A stretch of 64,000 nt of DNA from Brachyspira aalborgi (GCF_008016455.1 NZ_SAXU01000001.1:558001-622000); one strand, 5' to 3'. Counted from the first letter of the stretch, positions 52,854 through 60,614 are shown. Notes: generated by a model from the sequence alone, not told the origin. Numbers and translations are program-made.

Positions 52854-53243
52854 ATGCCTAATATAAGAAAATCTTTTATTTTATCGTTATTTATAATTTT
52901 TATTATTTCATGCTCAAATAAAGGTTATAAAAATATTAATCTAAAAAAAGCAATAAAAACTATTAATACTTCAACAAATTTAATTCTTTTAGATGTGCGA
53001 ACCGCGGAAGAATATTCATCGGGCAATATTCCAAATTCAATTAATATTGATGTTTTAAATTCCGATTTCAAATCAAAAACAGAATTGCTCGATAAAAATA
53101 AAGAGTATTTAATATATTGCAGAAGTGGAAACAGGTCTACAATAGCGTCAAGCATAATGGCTACAAACGGTTTTATTAAAATTTATAATTTAAATAATGT
53201 AAATTATAGCGATTTTGAAAACGCAATATTAACGAATAGATAA
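52854..53243 (+). CDS. Rhodanese-like lipoprotein
   Basis: 129 residues. A lipoprotein signal (LFIIFIISC) is followed by a single rhodanese domain with LILLDVRTAEEYSSGNIPNS and the active-site loop CRSGNRS. The catalytic cysteine is present, so sulfur transfer or phosphatase-like chemistry in the periplasm is possible. The start follows TTAAGGATATTTAATT. Confidence 0.85.
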   Translation: MPNIRKSFILSLFIIFIISCSNKGYKNINLKKAIKTINTSTNLILLDVRTAEEYSSGNIPNSINIDVLNSDFKSKTELLDKNKEYLIYCRSGNRSTIASSIMATNGFIKIYNLNNVNYSDFENAILTNR

Positions 53244-53264: not shown

Positions 53265-54197
53265 TTAATTTTTAATATGTTTATTAAGCCATTCGACTAT
53301 TTCGTTCATTACATCTTGCCTACAAAAATCGTTTAATATTTCATGTCTTCCGTCTTTATACAAACTAATATTAATATCGGTAAGTCCTAAAGATTTATAC
53401 ATTTCATAAACCCATTTTACGCCTTCGCCCATATTACCAACAGGGTCTTTGTCGCCCGACATTAGTAAAATAGGAAAATCTTTATTCATATTGGAATAAT
53501 TATTTGAGTTTGAAATTTTTTCAAGTAGATTAAATATTTGAATATAAGTTTCCACACTCGGAGGAATTTTTGAAAAATATTCGTCTTCTTTAACTTTTTT
53601 TATTTCTTCTTTATCCGAAGTCATCCAAGCGAAAGAGGAATTATCTTCGGGAAAGTATTTTCTTCCATATCCGCCGTTAGCTAATTTTGCTAAAAATCTT
53701 GCTCTCTTGCTTCCGCCGAAAATTGCTTTTTGAATATTCGCTATAATTTTTCCGCTTTTTTCAAATCCTTTAAATTTTCCTTTCGTTCCCATTACTATAG
53801 CGCCGTTTAAATATGAATGATATTTTATTAAAAAGCCTCTTGTCAAAAACGAACCCATACTATGTCCAAACATAAAATAAGGCAAATCTCCGTATTCGGC
53901 TTTAGTTTTATCCATAAGATATTTTAAATCTTCAATAATAAGTTCATGTCCGTTTTCTCCCATATCTCCCATTTGTTCTTTAGTTATAGCGCTTCTTCCA
54001 AATCCTCTATGGTCGTCTGCGCATACCAAAAAATCGTTATCGGTTAATTTTCTAGCCAATTCCTTATATCTTCCCGCATGTTCGTCAAGTCCATGAACTA
54101 TTTGAACTATCGCTTTAGGTTTGTTTTCGGGGATAAAAGTATAAGTAAACATTTTGTGTCCGTCTTCGATTGTTAAAACTTTAGTTAATTCTTTCAT
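53265..54197 (-). CDS. Alpha/beta hydrolase, monoacylglycerol lipase-like
   Basis: 310 residues from ATG 54197, chosen because CGGAG lies 8 nt upstream; an in-frame upstream ATG lacks one. VHGLDEHAGRYKELA, DHRGFGRS and the nucleophile GHSMGS, then SGDKDPVG and GRHEILND with the acid and histidine, fit serine aquaporin/lysophospholipase (Hydrolase_4) enzymes. Probably cleaves monoglycerides or lysophospholipids in the cytoplasm. It stands alone, convergent with the rhodanese gene. Confidence 0.85.
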   Translation of the reverse strand: MKELTKVLTIEDGHKMFTYTFIPENKPKAIVQIVHGLDEHAGRYKELARKLTDNDFLVCADDHRGFGRSAITKEQMGDMGENGHELIIEDLKYLMDKTKAEYGDLPYFMFGHSMGSFLTRGFLIKYHSYLNGAIVMGTKGKFKGFEKSGKIIANIQKAIFGGSKRARFLAKLANGGYGRKYFPEDNSSFAWMTSDKEEIKKVKEDEYFSKIPPSVETYIQIFNLLEKISNSNNYSNMNKDFPILLMSGDKDPVGNMGEGVKWVYEMYKSLGLTDINISLYKDGRHEILNDFCRQDVMNEIVEWLNKHIKN

Positions 54198-54299
54198 AAA
54201 ATCAACTCCGAAATTTAATATTAGCAATTAATATGATTTATTTGCTTGATTTAAATTATATATTATTTATTTCTTATATGCAATAAATAGCAATTTTAT

Positions 54300-55283
54300 T
54301 TAATAAAATTTAAATTTTGCTCTATTTAATAGCGAAGTTTTATCGCTTATATTTTCTTTAATATTAAGAAAATCCAATAATAAATGTCTGACATTATTTA
54401 TTTTATTTCTATTAAAATTTCCCGCGCAAGTCGCACAGTAAACATATAAGTTATTTAAATTTTTAGATTTTAATTTTTCTATAAATCCTTTTGCAATATC
54501 TCTTTCATTTACTATAGCGCATCCTCCGAGTCCGCAGCAATTAATATCGTTTATTTCTTTAATATTATCTTTATATTGAGGAATTAATTTTAATATCGAT
54601 TCTTTAATAAATTTTGATTCTTTATCTGGGCATGGCAAAAATAAATTTATCTCTTTAGAAAAATCTACATTTGAAATTTTTATTCCTAATTCAAATATCT
54701 TTTCGTATATCGTAACAATTTTTATACTAATTCTTGGCTTTAGAAAATAATAACAATTTGGACATAAAGTTATTATCTCTTCAACTTTAGATAATTCCAT
54801 ACTCTTTTCTATTTCTTTTATTATATTCTCTTCATAATCTTTAATTTCTAATTCCGCTATAGGCTTACCGCAACAGTCGAAAGCTATTCCTATATTATAT
54901 TCTTTTCTAAATATATCGGCAATTTTTTTCACGGCGTTCGGATAAAACGAAGAAAAATTACAACCTGGAAAAAGTATAGATTTTGTATTTGAATGTTTAT
55001 AATTTTTAAAAATATAATTCTTCTTTTCAAATAAAAGAGCCTTATATTTTTTTTCTATATAATTTTTATCTTTCCAACTATTTCTTAAAGCCAAAGATAT
55101 TTTAGAGCCGTCTATATCTTTAGGACATACTATTTTACAATCATTGCATAAAAAACAATTATAAGCTAAATCGTCTCTCTTTGAAAATTCATGTAAGTCC
55201 ATATTATATTTTGTCAAAAAGTCGCATTTTTTAACGCATTTATTACAATGAATACAATCATTAACATTATTTGGCATTTGCAT
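54300..55283 (-). CDS. CCG-domain (heterodisulfide reductase-like) iron-sulfur protein
   Basis: 327 residues: two 4Fe-4S motifs at the N-terminus (CIHCNKCVKKC; CFLCNDCKIVCP) and two CCG domains (FPGCNFSSFYPN..DCCGKP with LCPNCYY; CCGLGGC with CATCAG). This is the GlpC/HdrD layout used to pass electrons to a partner. It is the last gene of a seven-gene operon with arsenosugar-type glycosyltransferases, so it may serve as the redox partner of that pathway (inference). Confidence 0.82.
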   Translation of the reverse strand: MQMPNNVNDCIHCNKCVKKCDFLTKYNMDLHEFSKRDDLAYNCFLCNDCKIVCPKDIDGSKISLALRNSWKDKNYIEKKYKALLFEKKNYIFKNYKHSNTKSILFPGCNFSSFYPNAVKKIADIFRKEYNIGIAFDCCGKPIAELEIKDYEENIIKEIEKSMELSKVEEIITLCPNCYYFLKPRISIKIVTIYEKIFELGIKISNVDFSKEINLFLPCPDKESKFIKESILKLIPQYKDNIKEINDINCCGLGGCAIVNERDIAKGFIEKLKSKNLNNLYVYCATCAGNFNRNKINNVRHLLLDFLNIKENISDKTSLLNRAKFKFY

Positions 55284-55305
55284 AAAATTATCCTTAAAAT
55301 ATTTT

Positions 55306-55986
55306 TTATTTCATACTGTTATATATATTTGCAATCTTATCTATAGAAACTCCTCTTCTAAACATATATTGAAGTTTCTGCATAAGTAAAGCCGTTTTTA
55401 AAATTCCGTTTTTTTCAAATCTACGCGAAGAAGAAATAATATAAGAATCTATATATTTTATAGGAAATACATTTTTTAATTTTATTGACAATTTATAATC
55501 TTCCATAATCGGAATATCGTCAAACATTCCTATATCTTCAAAAAGTTTTTTTTCTATAAATATTCCTTGGTCTCCAAAAGCTATGTTTCTATATTTCACT
55601 CTCAAATTTGAAAGAATTGCAAATAATCTCATAATAATTTTTTTACTATCAAATTTTATTTTAAGACAACCCGCTTTATTCCCATTTTTTATAAAATTTT
55701 CTACTTTTATTAAAACATCCTCTTCTATAATACTGTCGGCATGTAAAAATAATAATATATCTTTATTGCTTTCTTTAGCTCCGTTATTCAACTGTTTTGC
55801 CCTGCCTCTTTCTGATTTTATAATTTTATAATCTCCAAAATTTTTAATTATTTCTATGGTTTTATCTAAACTTCCTCCGTCTGAAAATATTACTTCAAAA
55901 TCTCCTTTTAAACTTTTTAAATTATTTAATAAATTTTCTATATTTTCTTCTTCGTTTAAAGTAGGTATTATTATCGATACTGCCAT
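55306..55986 (-). CDS. GT2 glycosyltransferase, TIGR04283 (arsenosugar-type) family
   Basis: 226 residues of GT-A fold with SIIIPTLNEEENI, FSDGGSLDKT, SERGRAKQLNNGA, LFLHADS, FGDQGIF and MEDYKLS, and the SSRRFEKNGILKTAL end that marks the TIGR04283 family. The name comes from arsenosugar clusters; the real donor and acceptor are unknown here, and no arsM or arsS gene is in view. It begins 2 bp after the TIGR04282-type gene. Confidence 0.82.
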   Translation of the reverse strand: MAVSIIIPTLNEEENIENLLNNLKSLKGDFEVIFSDGGSLDKTIEIIKNFGDYKIIKSERGRAKQLNNGAKESNKDILLFLHADSIIEEDVLIKVENFIKNGNKAGCLKIKFDSKKIIMRLFAILSNLRVKYRNIAFGDQGIFIEKKLFEDIGMFDDIPIMEDYKLSIKLKNVFPIKYIDSYIISSSRRFEKNGILKTALLMQKLQYMFRRGVSIDKIANIYNSMK

Positions 55987-55988
55987 AA

Positions 55989-56642
55989 TTATATAACTTC
56001 AATCTCTTTTAAAAATATTTTTGTATTTTTTAATTTATTATCATTTATATTTATTCTTTTTGATAAATCTATTAAATCTTCGTATTCGTCTATATCATGC
56101 TTTTTATTCGTTAATCCGTATTTTAAATTATTCGCTTCTACAATATTAATTATATCTTTTAAATTTCCGCTTCCGCTTTTAAATATTATATCGTTAGCTT
56201 CTTTCATGCCTACAAGATAATATCCGCCGTCATAACTTGCTCCAAATACGAAATCGTTATTTTTAAGTAAATTAAAAGCGTTTATTATATCGTCTTTGTT
56301 AATTTCTGGTATATCTGCTCCTATTAAAACGCATTTGTCATATTTTAAACTCAAAACTTCTTTTATAGCGTTATACATTTTTTCATTAAGATTATTTCCG
56401 TATTGCTTAATATATAAATTCTCTTTATAAAAAATATTTTTTAATATATTTAAATCTCCTTCTTCGGTATGACAAATAATAATATCAATATCGTTTAAAT
56501 TTAAAAATATATCGTAAATATCTTTCAAAAAACATTTATGCAAATTAGCGCATTCTTCTTTAGATAATTTGCTTTGAAGTCTTGTTTTTGTTTTGCCCGC
56601 TTCTGGTATTCTTGTAAATATTATTAAACCGTTTTTACTCAA
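55989..56642 (-). CDS. TIGR04282-type nucleotidyl/glycosyltransferase
   Basis: 217 residues with LIIFTRIPEAGKTKTRL at the N-terminus, LIGADIPEI and ASYDGGYYLVGM, the CofC/MobA-like GT-A pattern of the TIGR04282 family. It regularly occurs beside TIGR04283 proteins and the pair is thought to act in one pathway. Gene order and near-overlap here repeat that pairing. Confidence 0.82.
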   Translation of the reverse strand: MSKNGLIIFTRIPEAGKTKTRLQSKLSKEECANLHKCFLKDIYDIFLNLNDIDIIICHTEEGDLNILKNIFYKENLYIKQYGNNLNEKMYNAIKEVLSLKYDKCVLIGADIPEINKDDIINAFNLLKNNDFVFGASYDGGYYLVGMKEANDIIFKSGSGNLKDIINIVEANNLKYGLTNKKHDIDEYEDLIDLSKRININDNKLKNTKIFLKEIEVI

Positions 56643-56643
56643 A

Positions 56644-57030
56644 TTATACTCTCTTTAATTTTTTAAAAATATAAATAAGTAATATTCCCGATATTATAAA
56701 AATACTTAAAACCGCATTAACGACATTTAAATTTAGTATTCCAATTAAATGCAATCCTTCTCTTATAATCGAGGACGGAATATAAATTAATCCTTTAGGC
56801 TTTAATATTATTAAACTTAAAATTGCAAATATTATAAGATTTATAATTGAAAATTTAAAAATATTTTTGATAAAATATAATTTATAAAATATTATAAAAA
56901 ACAATATCCATAATATAAACAAAACCGTTCCTATATTAATACGCATCTCAATCCATGTATTTTTAAACATAATAAAAGATACTAATAACGACCAAAAAAG
57001 CGTATTATATAGAACGGTAAAAAACTTCAT
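56644..57030 (-). CDS. Small membrane protein, unknown function
   Basis: 128 residues with four hydrophobic segments (for example IGTVLFILWILFFIIFYKLYF) and short polar loops. No motif recognised. It sits 1 bp from the TIGR04282-type gene and 19 bp from the YdjY-like gene, so it belongs to the same transcript. Confidence 0.65.
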   Translation of the reverse strand: MKFFTVLYNTLFWSLLVSFIMFKNTWIEMRINIGTVLFILWILFFIIFYKLYFIKNIFKFSIINLIIFAILSLIILKPKGLIYIPSSIIREGLHLIGILNLNVVNAVLSIFIISGILLIYIFKKLKRV

Positions 57031-57049
57031 TTTATTTTCCTATTTTTAA

Positions 57050-57730
57050 TTAATTATTAGAAGATATTCTAAATATAACCAAAACCTTTGTTCCGTCTTT
57101 AGGCAAAATATCTTCTCTGCCGAATCTGTCTATTTTTTTTATTTCAACAGCGCCTGTTTCATAGGCTGCATCGCTTACAATACCAACCGCGCAACTATCG
57201 AGACATAATATGCATCCCGTTCTTTTTGACTTTGCATTTTCAAAATTGCCGCCAAATCTTAAGTCCATAGTTCTATAATCGGCTGATTTGATTATATCGG
57301 CGAAAGGTATTTCTTTTTCAAGTCCGTCCCATTTAACGAAAACATCTAATTTTTCGCCTTCAACCGTTTTGCCAAGCTTCATATCTTCAAATGTGAGATT
57401 GTTTCCTGGTTTCGCTCCTATGTCGACTAAAGCTTGATAAAATTCTCTTTCATCGCATAGTCCTCTTAAAACCGCTTTATCTCCGTTTGAGCCTCCTTTA
57501 AATACTACGCCATGTCTCGTAGGAGAGTTAAAGTATTTTCCGTTTACTTCAGCCTCTATTATGACTTCTCTCTTTTCGGCGTCAATAATAACGGGAACGG
57601 CGCCGTTATCTCTTAATATTGGGCTTCCCATAGAGTTTTTTAACTCTTCCGTTTGCGAAGTTTTAGAGCATGAAGCCAAAACGCTCAATGTAAATATCGC
57701 AAGCAGTCTTAAAATAATTTTGTTTGTCAT
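57050..57730 (-). CDS. YdjY-domain lipoprotein
   Basis: 226 residues. The signal ends LSVLASC, so a lipoprotein. The mature part (VIIDAEKREVIIEAEVNG.., PTRHGVVF, GCILCLDSCAVGIVSDA) matches the YdjY-like domain, often found with ferredoxins and VTT proteins. The CxxCxxxC set near residue 175 could bind a metal or cluster. Higher GC than its neighbours is visible. Start after GAGTAAAAAA (AAGGAG). Confidence 0.75.
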   Translation of the reverse strand: MTNKIILRLLAIFTLSVLASCSKTSQTEELKNSMGSPILRDNGAVPVIIDAEKREVIIEAEVNGKYFNSPTRHGVVFKGGSNGDKAVLRGLCDEREFYQALVDIGAKPGNNLTFEDMKLGKTVEGEKLDVFVKWDGLEKEIPFADIIKSADYRTMDLRFGGNFENAKSKRTGCILCLDSCAVGIVSDAAYETGAVEIKKIDRFGREDILPKDGTKVLVIFRISSNN

Positions 57731-57779
57731 TTTTTTACTCCTTTGTAAAAAATTTTTTTATTATAATTTATCTATAATT

Positions 57780-58457
57780 TTATATAGATTTATTATTAAC
57801 ATATTTTTTCTTTAAATATATTGATATTATCAAAACGAATACAAATATAATTCCCGCTATTAAAAAATATAAAGCTCTATTTTCTTGAGATATAATGCCA
57901 GCGGAAGCTATTGTAAAAAGCGAAATTCCTGGAAGCATAAATATAAAAGTGTATATTGTATATAAAGTAAAACTTATATCGGTTATCCCATAGGCAAAAT
58001 TCTGTATATTATAAGGAAATAAAGGCACTAATCTTGTTATCATTAAAAGCATAATGGCGTTTTTGTTTCCGTCTTCAAATAATATTTTATTTAAATATTT
58101 ATTTTTTTCTATCAAAGGTTTAACGCTGTCTTTAAGAAAAAATCTCGATATAATAAAAGATATTGAAGCGGACATTGTAGCCGATATTGAACATAAAATC
58201 ATACCTAATATTGGACCGAATAATATTCCAGAAAATAAAGCGAAAGTAACGCCAGGCAAAGCTAAAACGGAACTTCCTACAGCCGTTATAATAATATATA
58301 TAATAGACGCTTTAATAATATTTTCGTTTATCATAAATTTAAAATTATCTAAATTATTAATTTTTTCGTATAGCTTATAATTATGATTTAATATTAATAT
58401 AATTATAACAAGCGCTATAAAGATAATTAATTTAATATATTTAGTTTTCATTTTCAT
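57780..58457 (-). CDS. TVP38/TMEM64 (VTT) family membrane protein, second copy
   Basis: 225 residues, six membrane helices, with the VTT motif FALFSGILFGPILGMILCSI and ITRLVPLFPYNIQNFAYGIT. Its start overlaps the end of the first VTT gene by 17 bp. VTT (DedA-superfamily) proteins move or scramble lipids or export ions; here the substrate is unknown. Confidence 0.8.
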   Translation of the reverse strand: MKMKTKYIKLIIFIALVIIILILNHNYKLYEKINNLDNFKFMINENIIKASIIYIIITAVGSSVLALPGVTFALFSGILFGPILGMILCSISATMSASISFIISRFFLKDSVKPLIEKNKYLNKILFEDGNKNAIMLLMITRLVPLFPYNIQNFAYGITDISFTLYTIYTFIFMLPGISLFTIASAGIISQENRALYFLIAGIIFVFVLIISIYLKKKYVNNKSI

Positions 58458-59181
58458 TTGTTTTATTATTATTTTTTTTACTTAAATATATTTGTCTAAT
58501 TAAAATTATCAAAACTGATAAAGCGAATAATATTAAAAGTCCCGTTACAAATAATCTCGCTCCTCCCGTAAGCATTCCGCCGACATAGGAATAAACTATA
58601 GTAGCTGGAAGCTGTCCTATTCCCGTAGCTATAAAAAATCCACAAAATCCCATAGAAGTTAAACCAGCCGCATAACTTACTATATCGAAAGAAATGAAAG
58701 GCAATAATCTCGCTATCAATATGCTATGCTTTCCGTATTTATCAAAGAAATCGTCTATTTGTTTTAATCCCGTTTTGCTTGTAAGTTTTTCAACGACATC
58801 TCTTCCTAATATTCTTGCTATATAAAAACATACCGCCGCTCCAGCCATAGCGCTCGACCAGGATAATATAGCTCCTTGCCACCAGCCGAATAAATTGGCG
58901 TTTGCAAAAGTAATTAAAAATGCAGGCAAAGGCGCTATAACAGATTGCAATATCATAAGAAGAAACGAAACCGCCATAGCGTAAGCTCCGTATTGAGCTA
59001 CAAATTCTTTAACTACTTGAAAATCGCCCGTTGCGAACATTTTAAATATATCGTTAATCGTAGAATTAACTTTTGGAACAAATATATAAATTAATATACA
59101 AGCGATTATTATTATTAATAGAATTACTTTTTCTATTATTGATTTTTTACTTATTTTATTATTATTTTCTAAATTTTCCAT
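58441..59181 (-). CDS. TVP38/TMEM64 (VTT) family membrane protein, first copy
   Basis: 246 residues, six helices, with LITFANANLFGWWQGAILSW and LIARLLPFISFDIVSYAAG as in VTT domains. It is the first gene of the seven-gene operon; AAGGAG precedes the ATG. Only moderately similar to the following VTT protein, so not a recent duplication. Confidence 0.8.
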   Translation of the reverse strand: MENLENNNKISKKSIIEKVILLIIIIACILIYIFVPKVNSTINDIFKMFATGDFQVVKEFVAQYGAYAMAVSFLLMILQSVIAPLPAFLITFANANLFGWWQGAILSWSSAMAGAAVCFYIARILGRDVVEKLTSKTGLKQIDDFFDKYGKHSILIARLLPFISFDIVSYAAGLTSMGFCGFFIATGIGQLPATIVYSYVGGMLTGGARLFVTGLLILFALSVLIILIRQIYLSKKNNNKTNENEN

Positions 59182-59535: not shown

Positions 59536-59907
59536 TTGGCATTAATAAAACAATTTACAATTATTTTTTCAATATATTCAATTTCTGATATATTAGGAAA
59601 ATCATTAAAACTACCAATACCCGCAAATGTTATAGGCATGTTTTTGCTCTTTATTTTTCTTTTAACGGGAATACTAAAAGAACATCATATAGATAAAGCG
59701 AGCGATATTCTAATAAATAATATGGCGTTATTATTCGTTCCCGCAACTTTGGCGATAATGGAAGAATATAAATATATAAAAGAATATGTTATTCCATTTT
59801 TAATAATATGCATATTTATGGTAATCGTTATAATGGTTTCTACGGGTTTAATAGCTCAATTTTTAGAAAGATTATTTAATAAATTAAGAAAGGAAAATAA
59901 AAAATGA
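59536..59907 (+). CDS. lrgA: LrgA/CidA family membrane protein
   Basis: 123 residues with four helices and the CidA/LrgA pattern (LPIPANVIGMFLLFIFLL; ALLFVPATLAIMEEY). I use the TTG at 59536, as no ATG lies near and AGAGG precedes it at good spacing. With LrgB it forms a holin-like pair now linked to pyruvate or other small-acid transport. It overlaps lrgB by 4 bp (ATGA). Confidence 0.85.
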   Translation: MALIKQFTIIFSIYSISDILGKSLKLPIPANVIGMFLLFIFLLTGILKEHHIDKASDILINNMALLFVPATLAIMEEYKYIKEYVIPFLIICIFMVIVIMVSTGLIAQFLERLFNKLRKENKK

Positions 59908-60614
59908 TAGAATTATTTAAATCAAATCCTATAATACCAATAGTTATAACTTTAATAGCTTATATTATTTCATACGCTATTTATATAAAAACAAAACTGC
60001 CGATTTTAACGCCTTTAGTGACAAGCGCCGTTTTAGTTGGTTTTTCTTTATATTTTATGAATATTCCTTATAGCGTTTACAATGAAAGCGGCGGAAAATT
60101 TATAAACGCTTTAGTAGGACCAGCCACAGTAGTTTTGGCTCTTCCAATATACAGAAATCTTCCAATCCTTAAAGCAAATCTGCCCGTTATATTAATAAGT
60201 ATAGCCATAGGAAGCGCAATCGGAATAATAGGAATTTTTATAATGTCAAAATTATTTGGAATATCCGACAATATACTTTTATCTTTACTTCCAAAATCTG
60301 TAACTACGGCAATAGCGGTTGATATCGCCGAAAGCATAGGCGGAATAAAATCTATAGCCGTTTTATCGGTAGTATTATCGGGAATAACGGGAGCTATAGT
60401 CGCGCCTTTCATTTGTAAAATATTTAAAATAAAATCTCCTTTTGCAATAGGTTTGGGAATAGGAACTTCTTCGCATGCGCTTGGAACGAGCAAAGCAATA
60501 GAAATGGGAGAAACCGAAGGCGCTATGTCGGGGCTTGCAATAGGTTTGGCGGGAGCTTTAACGGTTGTTCTTCTTCCGATACTTTATCGTTTATTAATTA
60601 TAATATGGAGATAA
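59904..60614 (+). CDS. lrgB: LrgB family membrane protein
   Basis: 236 residues of the LrgB family: FINALVGPATVVLALPIYRN, LLPKSVTTAIAVDIAESIGG and GIGTSSHALGTSKAIEMGE. Translationally coupled to lrgA. Likely works with it in the inner membrane. Confidence 0.9.
   Translation: MIELFKSNPIIPIVITLIAYIISYAIYIKTKLPILTPLVTSAVLVGFSLYFMNIPYSVYNESGGKFINALVGPATVVLALPIYRNLPILKANLPVILISIAIGSAIGIIGIFIMSKLFGISDNILLSLLPKSVTTAIAVDIAESIGGIKSIAVLSVVLSGITGAIVAPFICKIFKIKSPFAIGLGIGTSSHALGTSKAIEMGETEGAMSGLAIGLAGALTVVLLPILYRLLIIIWR

Follow-up and report, generated by a model that had tools for sequence, protein, structure and literature searches.

Positions 54300-59181 of a 64,000-nt stretch of Brachyspira aalborgi DNA (the window) hold, on the minus strand, seven co-directional open reading frames (ORFs) whose products probably activate an unusual ribose-like sugar and link it to an acceptor, either in the membrane or exported. 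An initial annotation, made from the sequence alone, had described here an operon of seven genes with near-zero spacing that carried arsenosugar-type glycosyltransferases but no arsenic genes. All seven ORFs were found, profile matches bore out the families assigned to the set, and the intergenic gaps, in order from VTT1 to CCG, were -17, 49, 19, 1, 2 and 22 nt, so that the tight packing (-17 to +49 nt) also stands. The VTT1, VTT2, YdjY, TIGR04282 and TIGR04283 proteins exceeded the curated cut-offs of Pfam or NCBIfam profiles, bearing in mind that neither an E-value nor a family name amounts to a function. The genes of the operon and a nearby rhodanese gene are listed below; in gene strings, GT82 and GT83 are short for TIGR04282 and TIGR04283, and RHO stands for rhodanese.

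58441..59181, minus strand: VTT1, membrane protein of the DedA/TVP38 type, related to E. coli YdjZ (PF09335, 1.5e-27)
57780..58457, minus strand: VTT2, another membrane protein of the DedA/TVP38 type, related to YdjX (PF09335, 7.4e-19; 17-nt overlap with VTT1)
57050..57730, minus strand: YdjY-domain lipoprotein (NF040466, 147.6 bits, cut-off 50)
56644..57030, minus strand: 128-aa hydrophobic protein, family unknown (no Pfam or NCBIfam match)
55989..56642, minus strand: TIGR04282 CofC/FbiD-type nucleotidyltransferase, predicted nucleoside diphosphate (NDP)-sugar maker (164.7 bits, cut-off 134; TTG start)
55306..55986, minus strand: TIGR04283 family-2 glycosyltransferase, the predicted transferase for the activated sugar (262 bits, cut-off 182)
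54300..55283, minus strand: CCG protein, HdrC-HdrB (HdrD-like) fusion (4Fe-4S/CCG; NF045663, dicluster half)
52854..53243, plus strand: rhodanese lipoprotein (PF00581, 1.6e-15; NF045521 'rhoda_near_glyco', 45 bits, below cut-off)

Predicted sugar activation and transfer

Despite its database name of glycosyltransferase, the TIGR04282 protein appears, by sequence and predicted fold, to be a nucleotidyltransferase. Its predicted structure (predicted local distance difference test score, pLDDT, of 94.9) had FbiD Rv2983 and 3-phosphoglycerate guanylyltransferase as the nearest characterised folds among the matches listed (Z 19-20), and all characterised relatives among the matches listed, by sequence as well as by fold, were nucleotidyltransferases, in a listing of fold matches that leaves room for glycosyltransferases. 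The protein shares its fold and part of its sequence with the CofC/FbiD guanylyltransferases. It differs from them in that it matched the CofC profile TIGR03552 at 8e-16 but with 58 bits against a cut-off of 105, and in that its neighbours suggest a sugar-1-phosphate as the substrate. In Anaerococcus obesiensis (L060, 6146-7615), a single protein of 489 aa combines TIGR04282 with an APH-type kinase, and this fusion, taken together with the nucleotidyltransferase fold, points to sugar-1-phosphate activation. TIGR04283, the other of the two enzymes first described as arsenosugar-type glycosyltransferases, has PDB relatives that include dolichol-phosphate mannose synthase.

The operon and ArsS across Brachyspira

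TIGR04283 was found over cut-off in 9 of 26 Brachyspira genomes, including that of the window, and the YdjY domain was present in the same nine genomes and in only one other among 247 Spirochaetota genomes. The gene order was identical in every fully read Brachyspira carrier, and conservation of the set goes beyond chance and beyond this strain. The 128-aa hydrophobic protein has homologs solely in these sister operons, that is, in Brachyspira only. YdjY often occurs in two or three copies in the carriers; in B. alvinipulli (L033, 5489-6181) a middle copy broken by many stop codons is flanked by two intact ones. In another carrier, G078 (L043, 9160-10153), two ORFs take the place of a single CCG gene, which is thus a pseudogene or the victim of a sequencing error.

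Profile searches of the window's own genome, which is 99.99% complete, gave no ArsS (TIGR04167) over cut-off, the best match being an unrelated radical S-adenosylmethionine (SAM) protein at 30 bits, and no ArsM (NF008823) over cut-off, with a best match of 29 bits. The absence of both arsM and arsS noted in the initial annotation was therefore borne out. ArsM was over cut-off in none of the 26 Brachyspira genomes, which leaves room for a divergent enzyme. ArsS exceeded its cut-off in 7 of the 26, all of them operon carriers, so that it occurs in 7/8 of the other carriers versus 0/17 of the non-carriers (Fisher p = 5e-5, without correction for relatedness). This distribution places the operon in an ArsS-associated pathway, one that is probably truncated in B. 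aalborgi.

Gene neighbourhoods agree with the linkage. In four genomes (G022, G103, G151, G171) an ArsS module with the layout RHO-(SSF-PPE)-ArsS-mtnA-mtnK divergently adjoins VTT1, and in three (G078, G088, G113) ArsS is located elsewhere; mtnA-mtnK follows ArsS in five of the seven ArsS-bearing genomes. The eighth other carrier, G083, has no ArsS: its operon contig stops just past the rhodanese gene and another contig begins at mtnA. As the order in the related genome G151 is rhodanese-ArsS-mtnA-mtnK, the contig break falls exactly at the expected place of ArsS, which makes an assembly gap the likely cause. In the window, a lysophospholipase-like gene (53265-54227) lies between the operon and the rhodanese lipoprotein gene, whose homologs adjoin ArsS or VTT1 in sister species.

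No ArsS remnant was found in the window or near the mtnA-mtnK locus of the same genome and, given the completeness of that genome, a real loss in this species is likely. What had been taken as an operon without arsenic genes thus looks like a species-level loss rather than a separate pathway. The proposal that the missing arsenic genes point to another product is weakened by the presence of ArsS in nearly all other carriers, although a non-arsenic product can still be envisaged, and the heteroatom borne by the sugar (X below) could be other than arsenic. A link to arsenite resistance was rejected, ACR3 being present in 6 of 9 carriers versus 8 of the 17 other genomes and absent from that of the window. 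The lack of ArsM in the genus, together with an ACR3 distribution that does not track the operon, ties the pathway to ArsS and leaves arsenic itself unproven.

Membrane and predicted redox proteins, and loci beyond the genus

BLAST comparison with E. coli gave 62.5% identity over 200 aa between VTT1 and YdjZ (E 1e-87), 39.5% between the YdjY lipoprotein and YdjY (E 8e-52) and 33% between VTT2 and YdjX (E 5e-33). The operon therefore contains a YdjXYZ module, which consists of a YdjY domain plus one VTT protein of YdjX type and one of YdjZ type. The YdjY lipoprotein has a lipobox-like ..LASC21 and a conserved CxxCxxxC (C173, C176, C180) whose cysteines are invariant; its structure model was poor (pLDDT 61.5) and was not used, and PDB sequence searches with the single YdjY, CCG and VTT1 sequences gave no match. 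In E. coli, FNR activates the ydjXYZ-ynjABCD operon (PMC3688515), in keeping with an anaerobic role. The E. coli ydjXYZ-ynjABCD(E) genes include homologs of VTT1, YdjY and VTT2 but no TIGR04282, TIGR04283, CCG or ArsS genes. The homology ties this uncharacterised E. coli operon to the ArsS-associated pathway family and offers a first pathway context for it.

The CCG protein matched HdrB and HdrC chains by profile. It carries a pair of 4Fe-4S motifs and a pair of complete CCG motifs (C108/C137-138/C174/C177 and C218/C249-250/C283/C286), and none of the cluster cysteines varies among 10 relatives. This is the arrangement of the HdrD/HdrBC heterodisulfide reductases, two 4Fe-4S and two CCG motifs in one CCG chain; the protein is nevertheless distant from them in sequence, and the operon has no HdrA or HdrE gene. 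An HdrD-like role as electron supplier, close to what the initial annotation had in mind, is plausible from these motifs; the VTT proteins may, as it also suggested, move lipid.

Scanning the species genomes of GTDB with TIGR04283 yielded 80 loci and, with the Spirochaetota loci, 86 were compared; because the non-Brachyspira loci were gathered via TIGR04283, its prevalence there is meaningless, and the loci are not independent. Proteobacteria and others have ArsS-TIGR04283-TIGR04282, often with VTT. In anaerobic Clostridia and termite-gut Treponema, TIGR04282 and TIGR04283 occur with an APH-type kinase, a nucleoside hydrolase (PF01156), a YnjB-like ATP-binding cassette (ABC) importer, VTT and CCG, mostly with no ArsS genome-wide. 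The nucleoside hydrolase was found in 10 of 15 kinase loci versus 1 of the 71 others, and none of the 24 ArsS loci of the survey also held the kinase. We rejected the idea that the kinase, nucleoside hydrolase and ABC genes stand in for ArsS; one genome, Clostridiaceae BL-3, has ArsS and the kinase in separate loci. The Clostridial loci share YnjB-like ABC genes (33% identity of the binding protein with E. coli YnjB) and rhodaneses with the E. coli operon. A single run in Lagierella (L062), RHO-GT82-VTT-VTT-GT83-CCG-CGCA-TIGR04169-ArsS, in which CGCA denotes C-GCAxxG-C-C, joins the ArsS-type and Clostridial-type gene sets; an internal TGA codon in its ArsS is consistent with a selenoprotein. 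A VTT-YdjY pair was also seen in a genome of another Spirochaetota family (G020; L196, 7954-11601), beside two genes that look Rnf-like by reading only.

A candidate pathway for 5-substituted ribose

The explanation that we favour, with about an even chance of being right, is that the operon covers the downstream half of a pathway, associated with ArsS, that activates and transfers a 5-substituted (5-deoxy-5-X) ribose. An X-adenosine would come from ArsS, salvage or import, and a nucleosidase would release 5-X-ribose from it. A kinase, MtnK in Brachyspira and the APH-type enzyme in Clostridia, would then make 5-X-ribose 1-phosphate, from which TIGR04282 would form the NDP-sugar; TIGR04283 would move the sugar onto an acceptor, probably lipid-linked or exported. 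Organisms with a phosphorylase would need no kinase, which could explain the kinase-free ArsS loci. VTT1, VTT2 and the YdjY lipoprotein may act as the YdjXYZ module on the membrane side, and the HdrD-like CCG protein and the rhodanese may perform thiol or chalcogen redox chemistry. In B. aalborgi the ArsS step would have been lost, with X-ribose supplied by uptake or salvage, unless the operon is left over from a full pathway.

The genome of the window has MtnK (504 bits), encoded in a run (L183, 7243-13211) of a lipoprotein gene, mtnA, mtnK, ABC ATPase and permease genes that is common to G022 and G171 and resembles an operon for the uptake of nucleosides or methylthioribose. There are also four PNP_UDP_1 nucleosidase/phosphorylase genes, so that the pathway could draw on import or salvage for its sugars, or else be a remnant. 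Because MtnK is also present in 8 of the 17 non-carriers, it was rejected as a marker specific to the pathway.

That lack of specificity is one of several points that weigh against the proposed pathway. In the window's own genome the operon has neither ArsS nor kinase; the related Brachyspira genomes are non-independent samples, and the counts are not corrected for relatedness; in Clostridia, the loci that combine the kinase with the nucleoside hydrolase come mostly from genomes without any ArsS, so that their substrate may differ; and the identities of both sugar and acceptor are putative. Operon content, conservation, the ArsS linkage, the nucleotidyltransferase fold, the kinase fusion and the E. 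coli homology were established computationally, whereas we infer each enzymatic step, the sugar, the heteroatom, the acceptor and what VTT, YdjY and CCG do.

Among the closest known systems is the ArsM-ArsS arsenosugar pathway of Synechocystis (Xue 2019 and Cheng 2021, as cited in PMC8552651 and PMC12159101). The TIGR04282/TIGR04283 pair is common to both, and ArsS adjoins the operon in sister species; unlike that pathway, the window's genome has no ArsS and the genus no ArsM, and Brachyspira has in addition the YdjXYZ module and the HdrD-like CCG protein, joined in sister species by mtnA-mtnK. A true arsenosugar or arsenolipid operon, in which ArsS, with an unrecognised methyltransferase or methylated arsenic from the gut, yields dimethylarsinoyl-ribosides, and in which B. 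aalborgi uses imported intermediates, would account for the family names, the ArsS linkage and the arsenosugar-associated protein TIGR04169 beside ArsS in Lagierella. We regard it as unlikely, since no ArsM was over cut-off in the genus, ACR3 does not go with the operon and is absent here, and this genome has no ArsS.

The same lack of ArsS, ArsM and ACR3 would suit an arsenic-free glycolipid or glycan, as outlined in the initial annotation, built with plain ribose or with a 5-methylthio- or 5-deoxy-pentose from SAM by-products. The mtnA-mtnK linkage would fit as well, and so would the ArsS-free Clostridial loci in which a nucleoside hydrolase, a kinase and an ABC importer are found; the near-perfect co-occurrence with ArsS within the genus, which argues that ArsS feeds the operon in most carriers, makes this reading a doubtful one too. 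Least probable, and in our view improbable, is a redox or chalcogen (selenium, tellurium, sulfur) system built around VTT, YdjY, rhodanese and CCG, whose product the sugar genes would serve to remove: it is supported by the rhodanese, CGCA and ExtH-like rhodanese genes seen nearby, by the rhodanese in E. coli ydjXYZ-ynjE and by the neighbours in G020 that look Rnf-like, but the sugar genes are the widest-conserved pair across phyla and VTT and CCG less so, in a set biased by collection with TIGR04283.

The 5-X-ribose pathway that we favour might, more tentatively, be extended to a widespread anaerobic route to 5-substituted ribosyl lipids via NDP-5-X-ribose, made by the kinase and TIGR04282. 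E. coli ydjXYZ-ynjABCDE would then be the transport and redox half for the same class of heteroatom sugars, and Brachyspira and Clostridia would obtain such sugars, by synthesis or salvage, without ArsM and with X not being arsenic; we give this extension a small chance.

To our knowledge, no enzymes have been assigned to the arsenosugar steps after ArsS, and we found no paper assigning them in the literature consulted, mostly non-subscription. The order kinase, TIGR04282 nucleotidyltransferase, TIGR04283 transferase, supported by the Anaerococcus fusion and the pairing of kinase with nucleoside hydrolase, offers a testable sequence for these steps.

As for the surroundings of the operon, no riboswitch or known RNA was found over threshold nearby, and a promoter scan was uninformative (72 sites versus 51 expected by chance). 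Upstream, a divergent pair of genes at 59536-60614 reads as LrgA/LrgB-like from its sequence.

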